Shown here piece by piece: positions 13,969 to 22,006 of a stretch of 64,000 nucleotides of DNA. Origin of the DNA: Tautonia plasticadhaerens (GTDB taxonomy: Bacteria > Planctomycetota > Planctomycetia > Isosphaerales > Isosphaeraceae); NCBI RefSeq assembly GCF_007752535.1, contig NZ_CP036426.1, forward strand, positions 930,001-994,000, written 5' to 3'. The position numbers and the translations under genes are program-made. Within the stretch, counting starts at the first letter, position 1; the number at the start of each line of letters is the position of its first letter. A model generated the notes under the pieces. That model ran no database searches, was not told the origin of the DNA, and saw only the letters and a program-made list of their open reading frames with translations.

Positions 13969-15696
13969 ATGAGTCCCGCCGACGTGGCCCGCATCCTCGA
14001 CGAGATGGGCACCCTGCTGGAACTCCGGGGTGAGAACCCCTTCCGCTGCCGCGCCTACCACAACGCCGCCGACGCCATCCGGGGCCTGGGGGACGACCTC
14101 CCGGAGCGGATCGCCTCGGGCCGGCTCGCCGAGGTCCCGGGCATCGGCGAGACGATCCGGGCGAAGGTCGTCCAGCTCGTCACCACCGGGAGCGTCCCGC
14201 TCTACGACGAACTCCGGGCCGAGTTGCCCCCCGGCCTGGTGGCCCTGCTCCGGGTCCCGGGCCTGGGCCCGAAGAAGATCAAGGCCCTGCACGACGCGTT
14301 GAAGGTCGAGAGCCTGGCCGACCTCCGCCTCGCCGCCGAGTCGGGCAAGATCGCCGGGCTCAAGGGCTTCGGCGCCAAGACCGAGCAGAAGATCCTGGAG
14401 GGCCTGGGCTTCGTCGAGTCGACGGGCGACCGGATCTTGCAGAGCACCGCCCGGCGGCTCGTCTCGCCGATCCTCGGGGCCGTCCGCTCGCACCCCGGCG
14501 TCATCGAGGCCGAGGCCTGCGGCAGCCTCCGGCGACGCCTCGACACGATCGGCGACCTGGACATCCTCTTCTCCTCCGACGACCCGGCCCCGGTGCTCGA
14601 CCGCTTCGTCTCGCTCCCCGAGGTGGCCTCGGTGCTCGCCCACGGCCCGACCAAGGCCAGCGTCCGGCTCGCCGGGGGGGTGCAGTGCGACCTCCGGGGC
14701 GTCTCCCCCGGGCAGTTCCCGTTCGCCTTGCACTACTTCACCGGCTCGAAGGCGCACAACATCGCCATGAGACGGCGGGCGATCGCCCGGGGGCTCCGCC
14801 TGAACGAGTACGCCCTGGAAGGCCCCGACGGCCCGATCCCCTGCGGATCGGAGGAGGAGCTGTTCCGGGCTCTCGGCCTGCACGCCATCCCCCCCGAACT
14901 CCGGGAGGACCGGGGCGAGTTCGACCGCGCCGAGGCCGGCCCGATCCCCCCGCTGGTCGAGCGGGGGGATCTCCGGGGGACCTTCCACTGCCACACCGAC
15001 TGGAGCGACGGCGGCAACACCCTGGCCGAGATGGCCGAGGCCGCCCGGGATCGCGGCCTCTCCTACCTCGGCATCGCCGACCATTCCCGCTCCGCCGCCT
15101 ATGCCGGGGGCCTGAGCATCGACCGGGTCCGTCGCCAGTGGGAGGCGATCGACGAGCTGAACGCGGCGATGGGCCCGGCGTTCCGGGTCTTCAAGGGGAT
15201 CGAGTGCGACATCCTCGCCGACGGCTCGCTCGACTACCCCGACGACGTGCTGGAGGGCTTCGACTACGTCGTCGCCAGCGTCCATTCCTCCTTCGGCCTG
15301 CCGGCCGAGGCCATGACGGCGCGGATCGTCCGGGCCGTCCGGCACCCGCTGGTCACGATGCTCGGCCACCCGACCGGCCGGCTCCTCCTGCGGCGGGAGG
15401 CCTATGCGGTCGACCTCGGCGCGGTCATCGAGGCCGCCGCCGAGGCCGGGACGATGATCGAGATCAACGCCAGCCCCCATCGGTTGGATCTGGACGCCCC
15501 CCATGTCCGACGGGCCCGGGACCGGGGCGTGGCGATCGTCATCAACCCCGATGCGCACGCCACCGGGGGCCTCGACGACCTGGACTACGGCGTCGGCGTC
15601 GCCCGACGGGCCGGGCTCGGGGCGGCCGAGGTGTTCAACTCGTTGCCGGCCGAGGAGGCCTCCCGGGCGTTGACGAAACTCCGCACCCGGGGCTGA
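13969..15696 (+). CDS. polX: DNA polymerase X family protein with C-terminal PHP domain
   Basis: The product is 575 residues, the usual bacterial PolX length. The N-terminal part has helix-hairpin-helix motifs (EVPGIGETI, VPGLGPKKI, LKGFGAKTE) for DNA binding. The polymerase palm shows G185-S186...D196-L-D198 (GSLRRR, GDLDIL), the metal-binding signature of the pol beta superfamily. The C-terminal PHP phosphoesterase has FHCHTDWSDGG (H340, H342, D344), IADHS and further metal ligands (ASVHSS, GHPTGR, NPDAHA), known in this family to give 3'-5' exonuclease. It probably acts in base-excision or gap repair. ATG 13969 has GGGAG 9 nt upstream. Confidence 0.95.
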   Translation: MSPADVARILDEMGTLLELRGENPFRCRAYHNAADAIRGLGDDLPERIASGRLAEVPGIGETIRAKVVQLVTTGSVPLYDELRAELPPGLVALLRVPGLGPKKIKALHDALKVESLADLRLAAESGKIAGLKGFGAKTEQKILEGLGFVESTGDRILQSTARRLVSPILGAVRSHPGVIEAEACGSLRRRLDTIGDLDILFSSDDPAPVLDRFVSLPEVASVLAHGPTKASVRLAGGVQCDLRGVSPGQFPFALHYFTGSKAHNIAMRRRAIARGLRLNEYALEGPDGPIPCGSEEELFRALGLHAIPPELREDRGEFDRAEAGPIPPLVERGDLRGTFHCHTDWSDGGNTLAEMAEAARDRGLSYLGIADHSRSAAYAGGLSIDRVRRQWEAIDELNAAMGPAFRVFKGIECDILADGSLDYPDDVLEGFDYVVASVHSSFGLPAEAMTARIVRAVRHPLVTMLGHPTGRLLLRREAYAVDLGAVIEAAAEAGTMIEINASPHRLDLDAPHVRRARDRGVAIVINPDAHATGGLDDLDYGVGVARRAGLGAAEVFNSLPAEEASRALTKLRTRG

Positions 15697-15734: not shown

Positions 15735-15762
15735 TTGCGGCCCGGCCGCCCCCATCTATAAT
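15735..15762 (+). promoter_or_regulatory. Sigma-70 promoter of the DUF2203 gene
   Basis: TTGCGG (15735-15740), a 16-nt spacer and TATAAT (15757-15762). The predicted start near 15769 leaves an untranslated leader of about 235 nt before ATG 16006. The leader (15770-16005) is GC-rich with no evident gene. Confidence 0.7.
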
Positions 15763-16005
15763 GCAGAAGCTGGATTCCGGGACGCAGGACGCTCTCCCTC
15801 CCCGCGGGGACCGTGACGGTCGGTCCGCAGCCCCGCGACGACGTTGTCGCCGACCTCGGCCTCGCCGCGACGATCGGGGTCCGTCCCCGACCTCCCGGCC
15901 GTCCCCCGTCCCGACCCGGTCCGGCCTCCGCTCCGCCCCGACCCCGCTCCCTCGCCGTCGCCGCCGGTCGGGCCCGCCCGGCCCCCGATTCAAGGGATCA
16001 TCGCC

Positions 16006-16473
16006 ATGGCACTCCCCAAGTCTCCCGAGGCCGGCCGCCGCGTCTTCACGGTCGAGGAGGCCAACCAAACCCTGCCGCTGGTCCGGGCGATCGTGGCCGA
16101 CATCGTCCGCCAGTGGAAGGTGGTCAGCGACCTGGAGCAGCGCCTCGCCCCGGTGCTCGACCGCCGCAAGTCGTCGAAGGCCGACGCTGACCCCTACGAC
16201 GCCGAGCTGGCCAGCCGACGCGCCGAGCTCGCCGCCGAGCAGTCCACCTTCCGCGCCTACCTGCACGAGCTGGAAAAGCTGGGGGTCGAGCTCAAGGGGG
16301 CCCACAACGGCCTCTGCGACTTCCCCAGCGTGCGAGACGGCCGGGAGGTCTACCTCTGCTGGAAGCTCGGCGAGGCCGAGGTCACCCACTGGCACGAGCT
16401 GCACTCCGGCTTCTCCGGCCGCCAGCCGATCGACGCCCGGGAGCCGTCCCACGCCGGGCATCAGCCCGCCTGA
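16006..16473 (+). CDS. DUF2203 family protein
   Basis: The product is 155 residues. It has the family pattern: an N-terminal FTVEEANQTLPLVRAIVADIV, a central helical region (ELASRRAELAAEQ), and a C-terminal LGVELKGAHNGLCDFPSVRDGREVYLCWKLGEAEVTHWHELHSGFSGR, where the Cys, Trp and His residues are the family hallmark. The function is unknown; members are small soluble proteins widespread in bacteria. ATG 16006 gives the conserved N-terminus directly. It has a likely own promoter and a gap of about 135 bp to the next gene. Confidence 0.85.
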   Translation: MALPKSPEAGRRVFTVEEANQTLPLVRAIVADIVRQWKVVSDLEQRLAPVLDRRKSSKADADPYDAELASRRAELAAEQSTFRAYLHELEKLGVELKGAHNGLCDFPSVRDGREVYLCWKLGEAEVTHWHELHSGFSGRQPIDAREPSHAGHQPA

Positions 16474-16608
16474 CCGGCGCCCCCCCGAGCCGAGGGCCGC
16501 CGAGTCCGGCCCGTCATGCCCGAACCTCCCCCGGAATCGGGGATTGGTCCGCCGCCCTCCGGGAATAGAAGGGGAAACGCATCGCGTCCCCGATCGAGGA
16601 CCCGGACC

Positions 16609-19600
16609 ATGATGAGCGCGAACGGATCGGCGGCGGCCGTCTCGGGGGAGATCCTGGACCAGACCCGGGCCCTCTTCGGCGGCGGCGTGGCCGCCGGGCT
16701 CAGCGACGCCGAGCTGCTGGAGCGGTTCGCCCGACGACGCCCCGGCGGCGTCGAGGCCGAAACGGCCTTCGGGGTGCTCGTCGCCCGACACGGGGCGATG
16801 GTGCTCGGCGTCTGCCGTCGCACGCTCCGGGACCCGATCGCCGCCGAGGACGCCTTCCAGGCCACTTTCCTCGTGCTCGCCCGCAAGGCCGGGACGATCC
16901 GGGTCGACGACTCGATCGGCCGGTGGCTCTACGGGGTCAGCCGACGGGTGGCCGCCAAGGCCCGACACCAGTCCGCCCGACGCCGGGCCGTGGAGCGGCC
17001 GATCGCCGGGCTCGCCGAGCCGTCCGGCCGGTCGTCCCCAGTCCTCGACGCCCACCGGGCCGACCTCCGGGCGGTCATCGCCGAGGAACTCGCCCGGCTC
17101 CCCGGCCCCTTCCGGGAGGCCGTCGCCCTCTGCGACCTGGAGGGCTGCACCCACGACGAGGCCGCCCGACGCCTCGGCTGGCCGGTCGGATCCGTACGCA
17201 GTCGGCTCTCCCGGGGCCGGGCCCGGCTCCGGGACCAGCTCTCCCGGCGGGGCGTCTCGCCCTCGACGCTGACCCTCGCCCCCCTGACCGCGCCGTCGCT
17301 GCCCCCGGCCTTGCTCCGGGCGACGACGACCGCGGCCCTCGCCTTCGCCTCGGCCGGCCGATCGGCGTCGCTGGCCTCCCCGGCCGCCGCCCTGGCCGTC
17401 TCGGTGCTCCGGGGGGCCGCGATCGGCTCGATCGCCCTCGGGTCGGCCGCCGTCGTCTCCGGCATCGTCCTGACCCTGGCCGCCCTCGTCGCGACGGCGC
17501 CGAAATCGCCCCCTCCGCCCCCCGCCCCGGCGGTGGTCCCGGTCGCCGTGCAAGAGGGACCGAGTCCCCTCGTCGTCCCCGTCGCCGACCACGAACTGCC
17601 CGAGGCCCGGCCCATCCCCCTGCCGGTCCGGGTCGTCGAGGCCGGGACCGGCCAGGCGATCCCGGGCGCGAGGGTCTCCGCCCAGGTCTGGCAGCCCACC
17701 GAGCCCCTCGACCTCGGCCGATCCGAGACGGACGCCCGGGGCGAGACCGTGGTGCAGTGGCCCGCCGACCTGGTCACGAGCCTGAACGTCCTGGCGAATG
17801 CCGACGGCTATGTCCCGATGCGGGCCTGGTGGCGTCGCCAGGACCTGCTCGCCGACCCCCCTTCCTCCCTGACCTTCGAGCTGGTCCGGGGCGAGGCGAT
17901 CGGCGGCATCGTCGAGGACGAGCGGGGCGAGCCCATCCCGGACGCAATTGTCTATGTCTGGGTCCAGGCCAACGGCCCCGGCGACGGCCGGGCCCGCTGG
18001 TCGACGACCGACTTCCCGGTCCGGACCGACGCCCGGGGACGTTGGCAAGCCCCCTACCTCCCCCCCGGTCAGCCCGGAGACGCCAGGGTCCTCCTCCGCC
18101 TGGAGCACCCGGATTTCGTGAGCGAGCCGTCCGGCTACAGCCGAAGGCACACCGCGGATGAGTGCCGGTCGCTCGATGTGGTCGAGGTCATGCAGGACGG
18201 CGTCCCGGCCTTGGGTCGGGTCGTCGACTCCAACGGTCGGCCGGTCGTCGGCGCCCGGGTCAACCTCGCGAGGGCGGGGGGAGGCGGTGCACCCGTCAGC
18301 ACCGAGACCAACGCCGACGGCCGGTTCCGCTTCGGGCACGTTTCGGCCCCTGAATCGCCGGACGCCGTCCCCCCCACACTCTGGAGGAACCTCCTCCCCG
18401 CCACGGTCGAGCGGCCGGGGTTCGCCACCACCATCGGGACCGTCAGGATCGGTCAAGGCGCACCCGAGACCGAGATCCGGCTGGCCGAGGCCCGCCCGAT
18501 CGGCCTACGGGTCGTTGACCCCGAGGGCCGTCCGATCGCCGGGGCAATCGTCACACTTGATGAGCTTCGAGCCGGAGACCGGGGCCAAACCGAGTCCTCC
18601 TGGATCGACCGGACCGACGCCGAGGGCCGGATCGTCTGGCCTGATGGCCCGGCTGAGGGCGAGGTCGAGTTCCGGGTTGACCGGGAGCCGTACCTTAGCG
18701 TCCTCCGAAAATCTGCTCCCGCCGGCGCCGAGGAGGCCGAGATCGTCCTCCGGCTCCCCCCCAGGGTCTCCCTTCGCGTGCTCGACGCTTCGACCGGCGA
18801 CCCGATCGACCGGTTTGAGGTGACGCCCGGGATCAGCCTCCCGCGCGGTTCGGAGTTCGACTGGTCGGTCTACGGGACGACGGACGAAGGGAGAGACGGT
18901 CAGTTCGACGCCGTCCTCGATGAACTCGCCTTCGAGCCATCCGGGGCGATCGCCCTCAAGGTCGAGGCCGAGGGCTACGCCCCGGCCGTGACCGAGAGGT
19001 TCGAGATTGCCGATGAGGTCATCGAGCGGACGGTCTCGCTGAGCCCGAGTGTCATGACGGAGGGAACCGTGTTCGGTCCGGACGGGACGCCGGTGGCGGG
19101 TGCTGAGGTGATCAAGCTCCTCGGCTCGGGATCCGTGAGCCTGGGAAACCGCTCGAATCTCCAGGCGATCCGCGACGAGTTGAGGGTCACCACTGGGTCC
19201 GACGGTCGTTTTGCCCTCGATCCCGAGGCGGAACCGTTCGGAATCGCCGTGATCGCCGACGAGGGCATGGCCCGGGTCGGCCCGGCCCGGCTGTCGGAGT
19301 CGGCCGAGGTGCGGCTGGTCCCCTGGGCTCGCCTCTCGGGCCGGTACTTCGTCGGGGAGGAGCCCCAGCCGGGCAAGACGATCACCGTCTCGGTCGACTC
19401 GACCGCCCCGGGGGCGACCCGATGGGTCCAGGACGGCTACGAGGTCACGACCGACGCCGACGGCCGATTCGAGCTCGATCGGGTCGTCCCCGGATTCGCC
19501 GTCGCCTTCTCCCCGACCGTCGGGCCGTTCTCGTTCGAGGTCGGGCCGGGCGAGGTGGCCGAGGTGGTGATCGGCGGGTCGGGCCGCCCGGTCGTCGGCC

Positions 19601-20445
19601 GGATCGAGGCGCCCGACGAGGAGAGCCTGCCGATCCCCCTGGACCGGGCAGGGGGCCGACTCCTGCTCGAACAGCGGGGCTTCCCCGAGCCCGAGGAACT
19701 GGCCGGGCGCTCCCAGGAGGAGCGGGTGGCCCACATCACCGCCTGGTACCAGACCCCGGAGGGGAGGGAGTGGAGGCGCAGGTATCAGGGCCACACCGTC
19801 CGGGTCGGGCCCGACGGTTCGTTCCGGATCCCGGATGTCGCCCCGGGCTCCTACACCCTCACCCTCCACCTCTCGTCCGAGTCGGGGAGCCGACTCGATG
19901 CCGAGGATCGGACCGAGATCCGGGCCACGATCGAGCGGGCGGTCGAGGTCCCCGAGGGAGACGGCCCGATCGACCTCGGCACCATCCCCCTGGAGGTCGA
20001 GACGATCCGCCACCGGACGCTGTCCGTCGGCCAGGAGGCCCCCGACTTCGAACTCCAGACGCTCGACGGTGACCCCGTCCGCCTGGCCGATCAGCGGGGC
20101 AAGGTCGTCCTGCTCCACTTCTGGGCCACCTGGTGCGGCCCCTGCCTGGAGGAGGAGCCGACGTTCGAGGCGATCTGGGAGGAATTCGGCGGGGACGACC
20201 GCTTCACCCTGATCGGCCTGAGCCTGGACGAGGAGCCCGAGGCCGCCCGGATCCACGTCGAGGCCCGGGGCTTCGGCTGGACCCAGGCGGTGCTCGGCCC
20301 CTGGGGGTCGTCGACGGTCGCCCAGGACTTCGGCGTCGAGTCGATCCCGAGGAGCGTCCTCATCGGTCCGGATGGCCGGGTGATCGCGAGTCGGCTCCGG
20401 GGGCCCGAGATCCGGGACGCCGTGGCCTCGGCACTCGCCCGATGA
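16609..20445 (+). CDS. ECF-type sigma factor fused to membrane anchor, Ig/carboxypeptidase-like repeats and a C-terminal thioredoxin domain
   Basis: The product is about 1,278 residues in one uninterrupted frame. Residues about 54-122 are sigma region 2 (EDAFQATFLVLARKA) and about 150-212 region 4 (REAVALCDLEGCTHDEAARRLGW...SVRSRLSRGRARL), as in planctomycete ECF factors. A hydrophobic segment at about 262-300 (GSIALGSAAVVSGIVLTLAALVA) is a probable membrane helix. Then follow about 800 residues of beta-rich repeats resembling carboxypeptidase regulatory-like domains (GxVVDxxGRPVxGAxV, TxADGRFRF). The C-terminus from about 1140 is TlpA/AhpC-like: VGQEAPDFELQTLDG, HFWATWCGPC (C1176, C1179) and a cis-Pro ESIPRSVLIGPDGRV. 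By inference the thioredoxin faces the periplasm while the sigma part is cytoplasmic. ATG 16609 follows GAGGA at 9 nt. No anti-sigma gene is adjacent, so the extension may be the sensor. Confidence 0.9.
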   Translation: MMSANGSAAAVSGEILDQTRALFGGGVAAGLSDAELLERFARRRPGGVEAETAFGVLVARHGAMVLGVCRRTLRDPIAAEDAFQATFLVLARKAGTIRVDDSIGRWLYGVSRRVAAKARHQSARRRAVERPIAGLAEPSGRSSPVLDAHRADLRAVIAEELARLPGPFREAVALCDLEGCTHDEAARRLGWPVGSVRSRLSRGRARLRDQLSRRGVSPSTLTLAPLTAPSLPPALLRATTTAALAFASAGRSASLASPAAALAVSVLRGAAIGSIALGSAAVVSGIVLTLAALVATAPKSPPPPPAPAVVPVAVQEGPSPLVVPVADHELPEARPIPLPVRVVEAGTGQAIPGARVSAQVWQPTEPLDLGRSETDARGETVVQWPADLVTSLNVLANADGYVPMRAWWRRQDLLADPPSSLTFELVRGEAIGGIVEDERGEPIPDAIVYVWVQANGPGDGRARWSTTDFPVRTDARGRWQAPYLPPGQPGDARVLLRLEHPDFVSEPSGYSRRHTADECRSLDVVEVMQDGVPALGRVVDSNGRPVVGARVNLARAGGGGAPVSTETNADGRFRFGHVSAPESPDAVPPTLWRNLLPATVERPGFATTIGTVRIGQGAPETEIRLAEARPIGLRVVDPEGRPIAGAIVTLDELRAGDRGQTESSWIDRTDAEGRIVWPDGPAEGEVEFRVDREPYLSVLRKSAPAGAEEAEIVLRLPPRVSLRVLDASTGDPIDRFEVTPGISLPRGSEFDWSVYGTTDEGRDGQFDAVLDELAFEPSGAIALKVEAEGYAPAVTERFEIADEVIERTVSLSPSVMTEGTVFGPDGTPVAGAEVIKLLGSGSVSLGNRSNLQAIRDELRVTTGSDGRFALDPEAEPFGIAVIADEGMARVGPARLSESAEVRLVPWARLSGRYFVGEEPQPGKTITVSVDSTAPGATRWVQDGYEVTTDADGRFELDRVVPGFAVAFSPTVGPFSFEVGPGEVAEVVIGGSGRPVVGRIEAPDEESLPIPLDRAGGRLLLEQRGFPEPEELAGRSQEERVAHITAWYQTPEGREWRRRYQGHTVRVGPDGSFRIPDVAPGSYTLTLHLSSESGSRLDAEDRTEIRATIERAVEVPEGDGPIDLGTIPLEVETIRHRTLSVGQEAPDFELQTLDGDPVRLADQRGKVVLLHFWATWCGPCLEEEPTFEAIWEEFGGDDRFTLIGLSLDEEPEAARIHVEARGFGWTQAVLGPWGSSTVAQDFGVESIPRSVLIGPDGRVIASRLRGPEIRDAVASALAR

Positions 20446-20548: not shown

Positions 20549-21240
20549 ATGCGTCGCGTGGTCACGATCGACGGACCGGCCGGGTCGGGCAAGAGCACGG
20601 TGGCCCGGATCGTGGCCGATCGGCTCGGCTGGCGACTGCTCGACACGGGGGCGATGTACCGCTCGGTCGCCCTGGCGGCCCTGGAGGCCGGGCTTGACCT
20701 GGCCGACGAGCGGGCCGTCGCCGCCCTGGCCGATCGGCTGACCGTCGCACTCCCGCCCGGCCGGGTCCTGCTCGACGGCCGGGACGTGACCGCCGAGATC
20801 CGGTCGGTCGAGGTGACCCGGGTCACCCGCTTCGCCGCCGACAACCCGGCCGTCCGCCGCCTGCTCGCCTGCTGGCAGCGCGACTTCGCCGCCGAGAACG
20901 ACACCATCACCGAGGGCCGGGACCAGGGCACCGTCGTCTTCCCCGACGCCCCCTGCAAGTTCTTCCTCACGGCCGACCCCGCCGAGCGTGCCCGACGCCG
21001 ACACGCCGAGTACCTCCGCCGGGGCGATCCGGTCGCGCTGGAGGACGTCCTCCGGGACCAGCAGGAGCGAGACGATCGGGACCAGTCCCGGGCCATCGCC
21101 CCGCTCCGGCCGGCCGACGACGCCCGGCTGGTCGACACCACGGGGAGGAGCATCGAGGACGTGGCCGCGATCGTCGAGGCCGCCGCCCGGTCCTGCCTCG
21201 CCGACCCTCCCCCCCCCGACCGGAGCCACCCGCCCCATGA
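20549..21240 (+). CDS. cmk: Cytidylate kinase, stop displaced by a probable 1-base indel
   Basis: It phosphorylates CMP and dCMP with ATP. The P-loop is GPAGSGKST (residues 9-17), followed by LLDTGAMYRSVA, TEGRDQGTVVFPDA and the lid RARRRHAEYLRRG; the last family helix ends near IEDVAAIVEAAARSC (about 21200). As sequenced the frame does not stop there. It runs to 22003, reading 250 residues out of frame through plsC. A run of nine C lies at 21209-21217, immediately after the domain end. One extra C would bring in a TGA at 21238-21240 that overlaps the plsC ATG as ATGA, the usual operon junction. I therefore give 21240 as the likely true end; the literal frame end is 22003. Confidence 0.85.
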
Positions 21241-21953
21241 CCCGCCCCGACGCCCCCGCCGGCCCGTCCCGCGCCGCCGAGCCCCCCGCCCGGGACCGGT
21301 CCCTGGCCCTGGTGCTCTACTACCGGATGACCCAGCTCTCGGGGTTCACCTACTTCTCGATGACCGGGGGCATCCGGACCAGCGGCCGGGAGAACATCCC
21401 CGAGCGGGGGGCGGCGCTGCTGGTCTCCAACCACGCGAGCTTCTGGGACGTCTTCGCGCTGGGGATCTCGGTGCGTCGGCCGCTGAACTTCGTCGCCCGG
21501 TCCTCGCTGTTCACCCCGGTGCTGGGGAGGCTCATCACCTGGATGGGCTCCTTCCCGATCCAGCGGGACGGCATCGGCGTGCAGGGGTTCAAGGAGACGC
21601 TCCGGCGGCTGAAGCGGGGCGGCATCGTCACCCTCTTCCCCGAGGGGACGCGGACCCCCGACGGCCGGCTCCAGGAGCTGAAGCCCGGCATCTCCACCCT
21701 GGCGATCAAGGCGAAGGTGCCGGTGATCCCGGTGGGGATCGCCGGGACCTACGAGGCCTGGCCCCGGGACCGGAAGTTCCCGCGCCCCCACCCGATCCGG
21801 GTCCACATCGGCCCGCCGATCTCCCCCGAGGAACTCTCCTCCCGATCCCCCGAGGACGCGACCGCCCTGATCCGCGATCGCATCCAGCAGGCGATCGACG
21901 TCGCCCGCCAGGAGTTCGACCGCAGGCTCGGCCGCAGCCCGACGGCCGATTGA
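21237..21953 (+). CDS. plsC: 1-acylglycerol-3-phosphate acyltransferase (PlsC family)
   Basis: A 238-residue membrane-associated acyltransferase that makes phosphatidic acid. The HX4D catalytic motif is in SNHASFWDVFALG, the acyl-acceptor motif in FPIQRDG, FPEGTR in motif III (LFPEGTRTPDGRLQELKPG) and VIPVGI in motif IV. The N-terminus has a hydrophobic stretch (SLALVLYYRMTQLSGFTYF). ATG 21237 is chosen by the domain start and by the ATGA junction expected with cmk. The pairing of cmk with plsC is common in bacteria and supports both calls. It is translated in a different frame from the cmk read-through. Confidence 0.92.
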   Translation: MTRPDAPAGPSRAAEPPARDRSLALVLYYRMTQLSGFTYFSMTGGIRTSGRENIPERGAALLVSNHASFWDVFALGISVRRPLNFVARSSLFTPVLGRLITWMGSFPIQRDGIGVQGFKETLRRLKRGGIVTLFPEGTRTPDGRLQELKPGISTLAIKAKVPVIPVGIAGTYEAWPRDRKFPRPHPIRVHIGPPISPEELSSRSPEDATALIRDRIQQAIDVARQEFDRRLGRSPTAD

Positions 21954-21977
21954 CCCGGCCCGCATCGGATTTTCGAG

Positions 21978-22006
21978 TTGGCCGGATCGACCGCTTCGGA
22001 TAGAGT
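21978..22006 (+). promoter_or_regulatory. Promoter candidate of the small lipoprotein gene
   Basis: TTGGCC (21978-21983), a 17-nt spacer and TAGAGT (22001-22006). It would give a leader of about 185 nt before ATG 22198. Confidence 0.5.

Follow-up and report, generated by a model that had tools for sequence, protein, structure and literature searches.

In a stretch of 64,000 nucleotides from the planctomycete Tautonia plasticadhaerens (the window; contig NZ_CP036426.1, positions 930,001 to 994,000 of the forward strand), one gene encodes an extracytoplasmic function (ECF) sigma factor, a long arm of beta domains, and a terminal thioredoxin in a single uninterrupted frame. Our preferred reading, held tentatively and at slightly less than an even chance, is that the product is a membrane-anchored, ECF57-like sigma factor with an exchangeable sensor arm outside the membrane, probably activated by proteolytic release. 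An earlier reading of the same DNA (the original prediction) had pointed to the fusion itself; the main result beyond it is the exchange of such arms between sigma factors and BlaR1-type heads.

Architecture of the fusion

The gene lies at 16609-20445 on the plus strand, encodes 1278 amino acids (aa), and contains 0 internal stop codons. Its features are, in window coordinates:

16609..20445, +, whole gene, 1278 aa: sigma, linker, probable membrane helix, beta arm, thioredoxin
16777..16974, +, sigma-70 region 2, aa 57-122 (Pfam PF04542 Sigma70_r2, E-value (E) 2.5e-7)
16813..16815, +, C69 in region 2, the first of two family cysteines (in 28/30 family members of this genome; invariant in a 27-sequence alignment)
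17077..17229, +, sigma-70 region 4, aa 157-207 (Pfam PF08281 Sigma70_r4_2, E 4.8e-13)
17131..17133, +, C175 in region 4, the second family cysteine (in 29/30 family members of this genome; invariant in the same 27-sequence alignment)
17254..17427, +, linker from region 4 to the membrane helix, aa 216-273, with a predicted helix at 233-252 (paralog conservation, AlphaFold2 (AF2) model)
17431..17487, +, core of the probable membrane helix, aa 275-293 (hydropathy, family comparison)
17491..17625, +, proline-rich neck, aa 295-339 (sequence)
17626..19992, +, stack of CarboxypepD_reg-type beta domains, aa 340-1128, ~790 residues (Pfam; homologous region in proteins with sigma and M56 heads)
19999..20442, +, ResA/TlpA-type thioredoxin domain, aa 1131-1278 (Pfam, AF2, Foldseek)
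20134..20145, +, CGPC redox motif, aa 1176-1179, within WCGPC 1175-1179 (sequence)

The original prediction had read this frame as sigma regions 2 and 4, about 800 residues of beta repeats, and a thioredoxin with WCGPC, and had proposed a search with the corresponding domain models. That search confirms the order: besides the two sigma regions, CarboxypepD_reg matches the beta arm in four stretches (E 4.9e-36), and the thioredoxin end is matched by AhpC-TSA (1140-1259, E 3.6e-18) and Redoxin (1140-1264, E 1.6e-15). With the general ECF model TIGR02937 the protein reaches 60.0 bits, above the cut-off of 42.9, and the ECF hallmark is present, with Pfam matches to regions 2 and 4 and none to region 3.

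The length of the open reading frame (ORF) is weak proof of a gene, because GC content is 72% and long antisense ORFs (1613 and 882 aa) overlap it. We take the frame to be coding because of its homology, its high GC content at third codon positions throughout (0.87-0.98, high in every segment of the gene), and the equal domain order in other genomes, seen by searching 45 family genomes and 148 class genomes and then reading the loci (L, G, and C labels below are our own for loci, genomes, and contigs). The recurrence of this order in independent genomes, together with the high third-position GC throughout, leads us to reject two separate genes joined by error. The GC content of the gene (0.732) is close to that of the window (0.718). 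The start used is 16609; an in-frame ATG at 16516 could lengthen the protein by 31 residues. Within residues 1000-1139, which were inspected for internal starts, an in-frame GTG at residue 1040 follows an AGGAGG-like stretch, making an internal start possible.

Exchange of arms with BlaR1-type heads

In planctomycetes, homologous beta arms, many of them ending in a like thioredoxin, also occur on BlaR1-type M56 peptidase heads. Pfam confirms the M56 domain in all four heads scanned (L006, L007, L069, and L086), the remaining M56 heads being assigned by the HExxH motif only. A BlaI-like frame lies upstream of the M56 gene in 6 of 10 loci by pattern, and all six are Penicillinase_R by Pfam, which was applied only to them; the other four upstream regions have no BlaI by pattern. 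These planctomycete proteins thus recall the BlaR1 and MecR1 sensor peptidases with their BlaI repressor, whereas the window head is a sigma factor with one probable helix, in which Pfam finds no M56 peptidase domain.

The arms fail to separate by head type. On the tree built from 61 arms (30 sigma, 27 M56, and 4 unlabelled), 8 changes of head are required, 6 of them forced by well-supported branches, and shuffled head labels require 19.4 on average, so that heads are clustered yet far from having one origin each. A single clade of sigma arms is rejected by an approximately unbiased (AU) test (p 1.7e-99; 29 sigma and 26 M56 arms), for which head labels were fixed beforehand, although the first tree had already been seen when the test was run. 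The AU set drops two long branches (L183 and L026) and the four unlabelled rows, including L086, in which Pfam finds M56. Rows scoring under 400 bits to the arm profile were excluded from the tail tree, which therefore lacks L035, L043, and L105, and duplicate loci of one place were removed by hand before arms and heads were assigned; the trees are quick ones under a simple model, and their exact numbers may shift. For example, the arm of L031, a sigma protein of the window's own genome, is sister to six M56 arms within a supported group of 14 arms, all but one of them (13) on M56 heads; its thioredoxin motif is dead, like that of its M56 neighbours on the tree. A tree of the sigma domains is poorly resolved, with 25 starred branches out of 100, and requires 11 changes of thioredoxin presence, 3 of them forced; it is not used as support.

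The homologous tails on M56 proteins and the rejection of a single sigma clade indicate that arms have moved repeatedly between head types. This suggests that the arm behaves as an exchangeable unit, as would fit a sensor, and the homologous arms on BlaR1-type heads are an independent reason for calling it one. The window's genome itself holds one BlaI-M56 pair, in which a repressor gene of BlaI type precedes an M56-type frame (HExxH) that bears the same kind of beta arm and lacks a thioredoxin (L059 and L218, contig C1, ~8370000-8377500).

Probable membrane helix and topology

The original prediction had placed a membrane helix at about 262-300, and a helix with its core at ~275-293 is probable. 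This is the only stretch of the protein in which the 19-residue Kyte-Doolittle mean exceeds 1.6 (2.25; runner-up stretch, 1.49). Its position recurs in the family formed by the window copy and 29 paralogs from the same genome: 27 of the 30 members reach 1.6 within residues 206-330, none of 27 does so in the next 125 residues (331-455), and the best-scoring stretches start at 267-285 in 28 of 30. Charges are distributed unevenly across the helix: summed over the 30 members, the ratio of lysine plus arginine to aspartate plus glutamate is 62/10 in the 15 residues preceding it and 28/52 in the 15 residues after, a bias that places the sigma side inside. The beta arm and thioredoxin would lie outside the membrane.

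Some features of the stretch weaken the case for an anchor. Whole-protein shuffling matches the value of 2.25 in 86 of 1000 trials, so that the single sequence is not decisive; the hydrophobicity of the window copy's helix is only moderate, with a biological-scale sum of -0.1. When the 125-residue stretch itself is shuffled, p falls below 0.05 in just 9 of 30 members, since the whole stretch is rich in alanine, leucine, and valine and its shuffles are often as hydrophobic.

The sigma head and its paralogs

A protein search of the window's genome gives 58 matches; the paralog set taken from it consists of 29 proteins in which a single frame holds both sigma and tail. Their tails extend ~100 to 1200 residues beyond the sigma part and are diverse: in the 27 scanned with Pfam at E 0.001 (two others being too short), CarboxypepD_reg occurs in 7, HlyD in 2, redoxin/thioredoxin in 2, SLBB/Poly_export in 1, and CBM9 in 1. 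The recognised kinds of domain are mostly known from outside the membrane. The linker keeps certain positions among the 30 members (L235 in 23, T239 in 24, A243 in 26, and L262 in 24) while the tails differ. For the comparison of the sigma family, 80 of 466 relatives were kept, and the 27-sequence alignment in which C69 and C175 are invariant includes records named Gemmataceae, Isosphaeraceae, and Paludisphaera.

The link drawn earlier to planctomycete ECF sigma factors with large C-terminal extensions is supported, and the window protein may be called ECF57-like, a label assigned by description rather than by comparison with the group model. It rests on the two conserved cysteines and the large C-terminal extension, as told for ECF57 in a review (PMC8999054), where some members are said to carry WD40-like C-terminal extensions and the two cysteines may link regions 2 and 4. 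The review's example from Singulisphaera acidiphila (WP_015250107.1) likewise joins a sigma 2-4 core to a large extension in a planctomycete (PMC8999054). A pair of conserved cysteines, in regions 2 and 4, is common to both groups; since positions are not stated in the review, the pairs are assumed to be the same (PMC8999054). It also places ECF57 among the ECFs without an anti-sigma factor (PMC8999054), and no anti-sigma gene adjoins the window gene. The groups differ in their extensions, since the review emphasizes WD40-like repeats and protein interaction for some members (PMC8999054), whereas the window protein has a probable membrane helix, beta domains, and a thioredoxin. Pfam finds no WD40-like repeats in the window protein and lists none for the 27 tails of its genome; they are not stated to be obligatory for ECF57. 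The protein would thus be of a known kind, a tethered ECF57-like sigma factor, in a new variant with beta arm and thioredoxin; a literature search found no paper on such sigma-thioredoxin fusions, and where PMC8103513 mentions thioredoxin it deals with other subjects, though most subscription papers lay outside the search's coverage and a prior report is possible.

Other tails of the family carry transport-type domains. HlyD membrane-fusion domains occur in two ECF-type sigma proteins of this genome (L040:2842-4242 and L053:1214-2860, contig C1), joining a transport part to a sigma factor, and the SLBB and Poly_export tail of L034:1286-4513 (contig C1) resembles polysaccharide exporters. Three sigma proteins with CarboxypepD_reg tails are clustered on contig C2 (278 kb) at ~144000-156000 (L057 and L058).

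Distribution of sigma-thioredoxin fusions

At least 19 distinct uninterrupted frames carry sigma and thioredoxin, answering the call of the original prediction for a search in other planctomycetes: the window copy, L003, L005, L031, L035, L043, L064, L065, L066, L067, L070, L083, L084, L105, L175, L176, L183, L197, and L198. Of the 45 family genomes, at least 11 carry such a fusion (10 if the interrupted G011 copy is not counted); further ones occur in G035, G070, and G076, three genomes from a different family within the class, and in a Fimbriiglobus metagenome-assembled genome (L105), all census figures being lower bounds. The window's own genome has at least four (the window copy, L031, L035, and L043), with one domain dead. 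The same beta arm, ending near the expected start of the thioredoxin, is present on further sigma proteins, for example L004, L068, L071, L077, L078, L079, L081, and L085. Ten proteins, three of them dead copies, went into the thioredoxin profile; L003, L031, L066, and L067 are also matched when the window domain alone serves as the query, but Pfam lists no thioredoxin family for L031. The 5' end of L067 is cut, and its frame continues ~500 residues beyond the thioredoxin. Stop codons break two further fusions: L002 (L002/L171, G011) has two within its thioredoxin domain and L201 (G044) has one in its beta region, reflecting decay or sequencing error.

The thioredoxin domain and the nature of the signal

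The active site of the window copy is complete: it has WCGPC (C1176 and C1179), a glutamate three residues after the second cysteine, equivalent to ResA Glu80, and a cis-proline at 1247. The AF2 model of the domain (45 sequences) has a mean predicted local distance difference test (pLDDT) score of 94.2, and the best Foldseek matches to it are to thiol-disulfide oxidoreductases, ResA and DsbE types among them. Of the 32 distinct sequences of known structure related to the last 152 residues (E 1e-8), most belong to ResA, TlpA, and other thiol-disulfide oxidoreductases of that kind. Fold, CxxC, glutamate, cis-proline, and membrane tether would all be shared with the tethered ResA, TlpA, and DsbE proteins; the window thioredoxin differs in being the terminal part of a regulator, ~840 residues away from the probable membrane helix.

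A redox role is therefore plausible in the window copy, as the original prediction had supposed, and could extend to a one-protein redox receptor, in which the outside CGPC thioredoxin would meet a thiol, an oxidant, or an oxidized partner and the redox change would control sigma release. The complete active site and the grouping of the modelled domain with ResA- and DsbE-type proteins speak for such a receptor, as do the wider alignment and the single DsbD_TM protein of the genome, which could supply electrons. Among 41 aligned thioredoxin domains (19 from sigma proteins, 18 from M56 proteins, and 4 headless in frame), CxxC is present in 28 and lost in 13, and all 28 with CxxC have the cis-proline; sigma fusions keep the cysteines in 14 of 19 cases and have lost them in five (L003, L031, L066, L067, and L105). 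The same losses count against it, as do those in M56 proteins with a thioredoxin (kept in 10 of 18, lost in 8) and the sparse retention of the ResA-type glutamate (13 of the 28, and 8 of the 19 sigma fusions). Of the supported group of six on the tail tree to which the window arm belongs, the five other arms have either a dead thioredoxin (L003, L066, and L067) or none (L077 and L078). On balance we regard the receptor as unlikely and thiol chemistry as the signal as speculative: a redox signal appears not to be a conserved requirement of such arms, and redox would be one possible use of the arm rather than its defining one, because the window arm's group otherwise has dead or missing thioredoxins.

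The repeated loss of cysteines from a retained domain, with 5 changes of state on the tail tree, could instead mean that the arm serves chiefly for binding or docking to cell wall, polysaccharide, or an envelope protein, its thioredoxin fold acting as a binding module that tolerates cysteine loss. Arms that end just before the thioredoxin and the quite different tails of the paralogs would agree with docking, to which we give about the same small chance as to the receptor; it is at odds with the retention of CxxC and cis-proline in 14 of 19 sigma fusions and with the higher identity of the thioredoxin (0.43) than of the beta arm (0.33) in ten aligned proteins. It is quite improbable, in our judgment, that the thioredoxin is an ordinary envelope enzyme riding on the sigma protein, its level or place set by the fusion and its state not sensed by sigma. 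Thioredoxin arms do occur in frames with no sigma match (L187 and L188, by Pfam also without M56, and L190, by motif only), as a riding enzyme would allow; however, homologous arms are shared by membrane regulators of two unrelated classes and are not sorted by head type, and the sigma regions stay conserved. In six proteins with M56 or sigma heads (L007, L031, L072, L203, L204, and L205), FG....D.QS-like motifs without cysteine replace WCxxC, a likeness that looks as if the dead thioredoxin had a function of its own.

The natural series of complete, dead, and missing thioredoxins makes the role of redox chemistry directly testable and, with the exchange of arms, deserves specialist attention. 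A redox receptor, if real, would be a single-protein path from the thiol state of the envelope to transcription. A further proposal, rather doubtful in our view, is that planctomycetes swap cassettes of outside sensor arms between tethered sigma factors and BlaR1/BlaI pairs and that in the window protein an active ResA-type thioredoxin gates sigma release.

Possible mechanism of activation

In the preferred reading, tethering with an exchangeable outside sensor, the sigma domains and helical linker would lie in the cytoplasm, one helix would cross the membrane, and the beta arm and thioredoxin would stand outside. In the tethered state the membrane, and possibly the linker, would keep sigma off RNA polymerase, and an event at the outside arm (a ligand, a partner, or the state of the cell wall or of thiols) would lead to cleavage and free the sigma part. 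The arm would act as an exchangeable sensor module, with relatives on BlaR1-type M56 peptidases. Control of ECFs with extensions or without regulators is in general largely open, according to reviews (PMC8999054 and PMC8103513); for the window protein, a likely sensor would lie within the same protein, and its placement in the membrane is predictable.

Precedents come from the ECF57 review (PMC8999054), where sigma release via Prc and RseP is described for IutY (ECF243) and like release is expected for ECF48, ECF52, and ECF53. These proteins (IutY and the SCO4117 type of ECF52, ECF48, and ECF53), as described there, combine sigma, membrane helix, and outside region in one chain, as the window protein would; they differ in having a fused, membrane-bound anti-sigma part, recognisable as a domain between sigma and helix, whereas by Pfam the window protein lacks one and its outside part is of another kind. 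M50 proteases above the cut-off are present in the window's genome.

The AF2 model of the sigma part (27 sequences, mean pLDDT 85.5) has a confident helix at 233-252 and a single long helix at 258-295. Its regions 2 and 4 superpose on most of the listed anti-sigma-bound ECFs, for example 1or7, 4nqw, and 5wur, with a root-mean-square deviation (rmsd) of 6.8-9.0 Å over 147-165 residues and fit polymerase-bound ECFs more poorly (rmsd ~19-26 Å), a hint that the placement of the two regions resembles that in most of the anti-sigma-bound ECFs listed. The Foldseek/VIA comparison covers mainly residues 28-223, so that the lack of a match for the linker is uninformative.

Several observations pull the other way. 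Pfam finds no anti-sigma domain at E 0.1 within aa 221-300, and in ten aligned fusions the linker (identity 0.33) is no better conserved than the beta arm (0.33), sigma standing at 0.52 and the thioredoxin at 0.43. Among the structures, the anti-sigma complex 6dxo fits the sigma model worse (12.2 Å), SigG1 (7qh5), listed without a partner, fits it about equally (9.3 Å), and the AF2 domain arrangement comes without an error matrix. M50 proteases are present in 14 of 14 control genomes, and the review suggests protein interaction, not proteolysis, for the control of ECF57 (PMC8999054). Finally, no Pfam family reaches E 0.01 in 11 of the 27 paralog tails, and two tails have weak, sub-cut-off matches to domains that also occur inside cells (SnoaL_2 in L033 and TPR in L044).

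Genomic site and neighbouring genes

The genes around the fusion are:

13969-15696, polX
15844-16473, DUF2203 gene, upstream neighbour
20549-22003, (d)CMP kinase gene (cmk), 484 aa, downstream neighbour

None of these neighbours is an anti-sigma gene, in agreement with the original prediction. A 283-aa ORF at 15761-16612 that overlaps the start was considered as a coupled partner and rejected: it has no NCBIfam match and appears to be a shadow frame rich in arginine, proline, and serine, the real gene there being DUF2203 in another frame.

A conserved operon of DUF2203, the window gene, and cmk is likewise rejected. In all 10 genomes searched, 121-4078 bases separate the DUF2203 match from that of cmk, and the window gene stands between them in the window's genome only; at 7 of the 9 other sites tblastn with the window protein gives no match, and at the remaining two (G044 and G047) the gap is only 170-171 bases. 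On the presence of the fusion in close relatives, a point raised earlier, the picture is divided: the gene is missing from its site in all three same-genus genomes, in which there is no match at 1e-60 (family search) or 1e-100 (class search) and weaker sigma matches are present, and the fusion exists in other genera. Its absence at the site in the same genus means that the gene was gained here or lost nearby. Among the same-genus genomes, the gap is 291 bases in G001 and is filled by a 438-aa frame in G002 and G003 (L233 and L234), presumably a TRAP/TAXI-type receptor. The gap may be insertion-prone, with the sigma gene or the 438-aa frame at one place. In the adjacent (d)CMP kinase, the family match covers residues 5-210 of 484 and no Pfam family is listed for the rest; the open frames of the same-genus (d)CMP kinases are 245-317 aa long.

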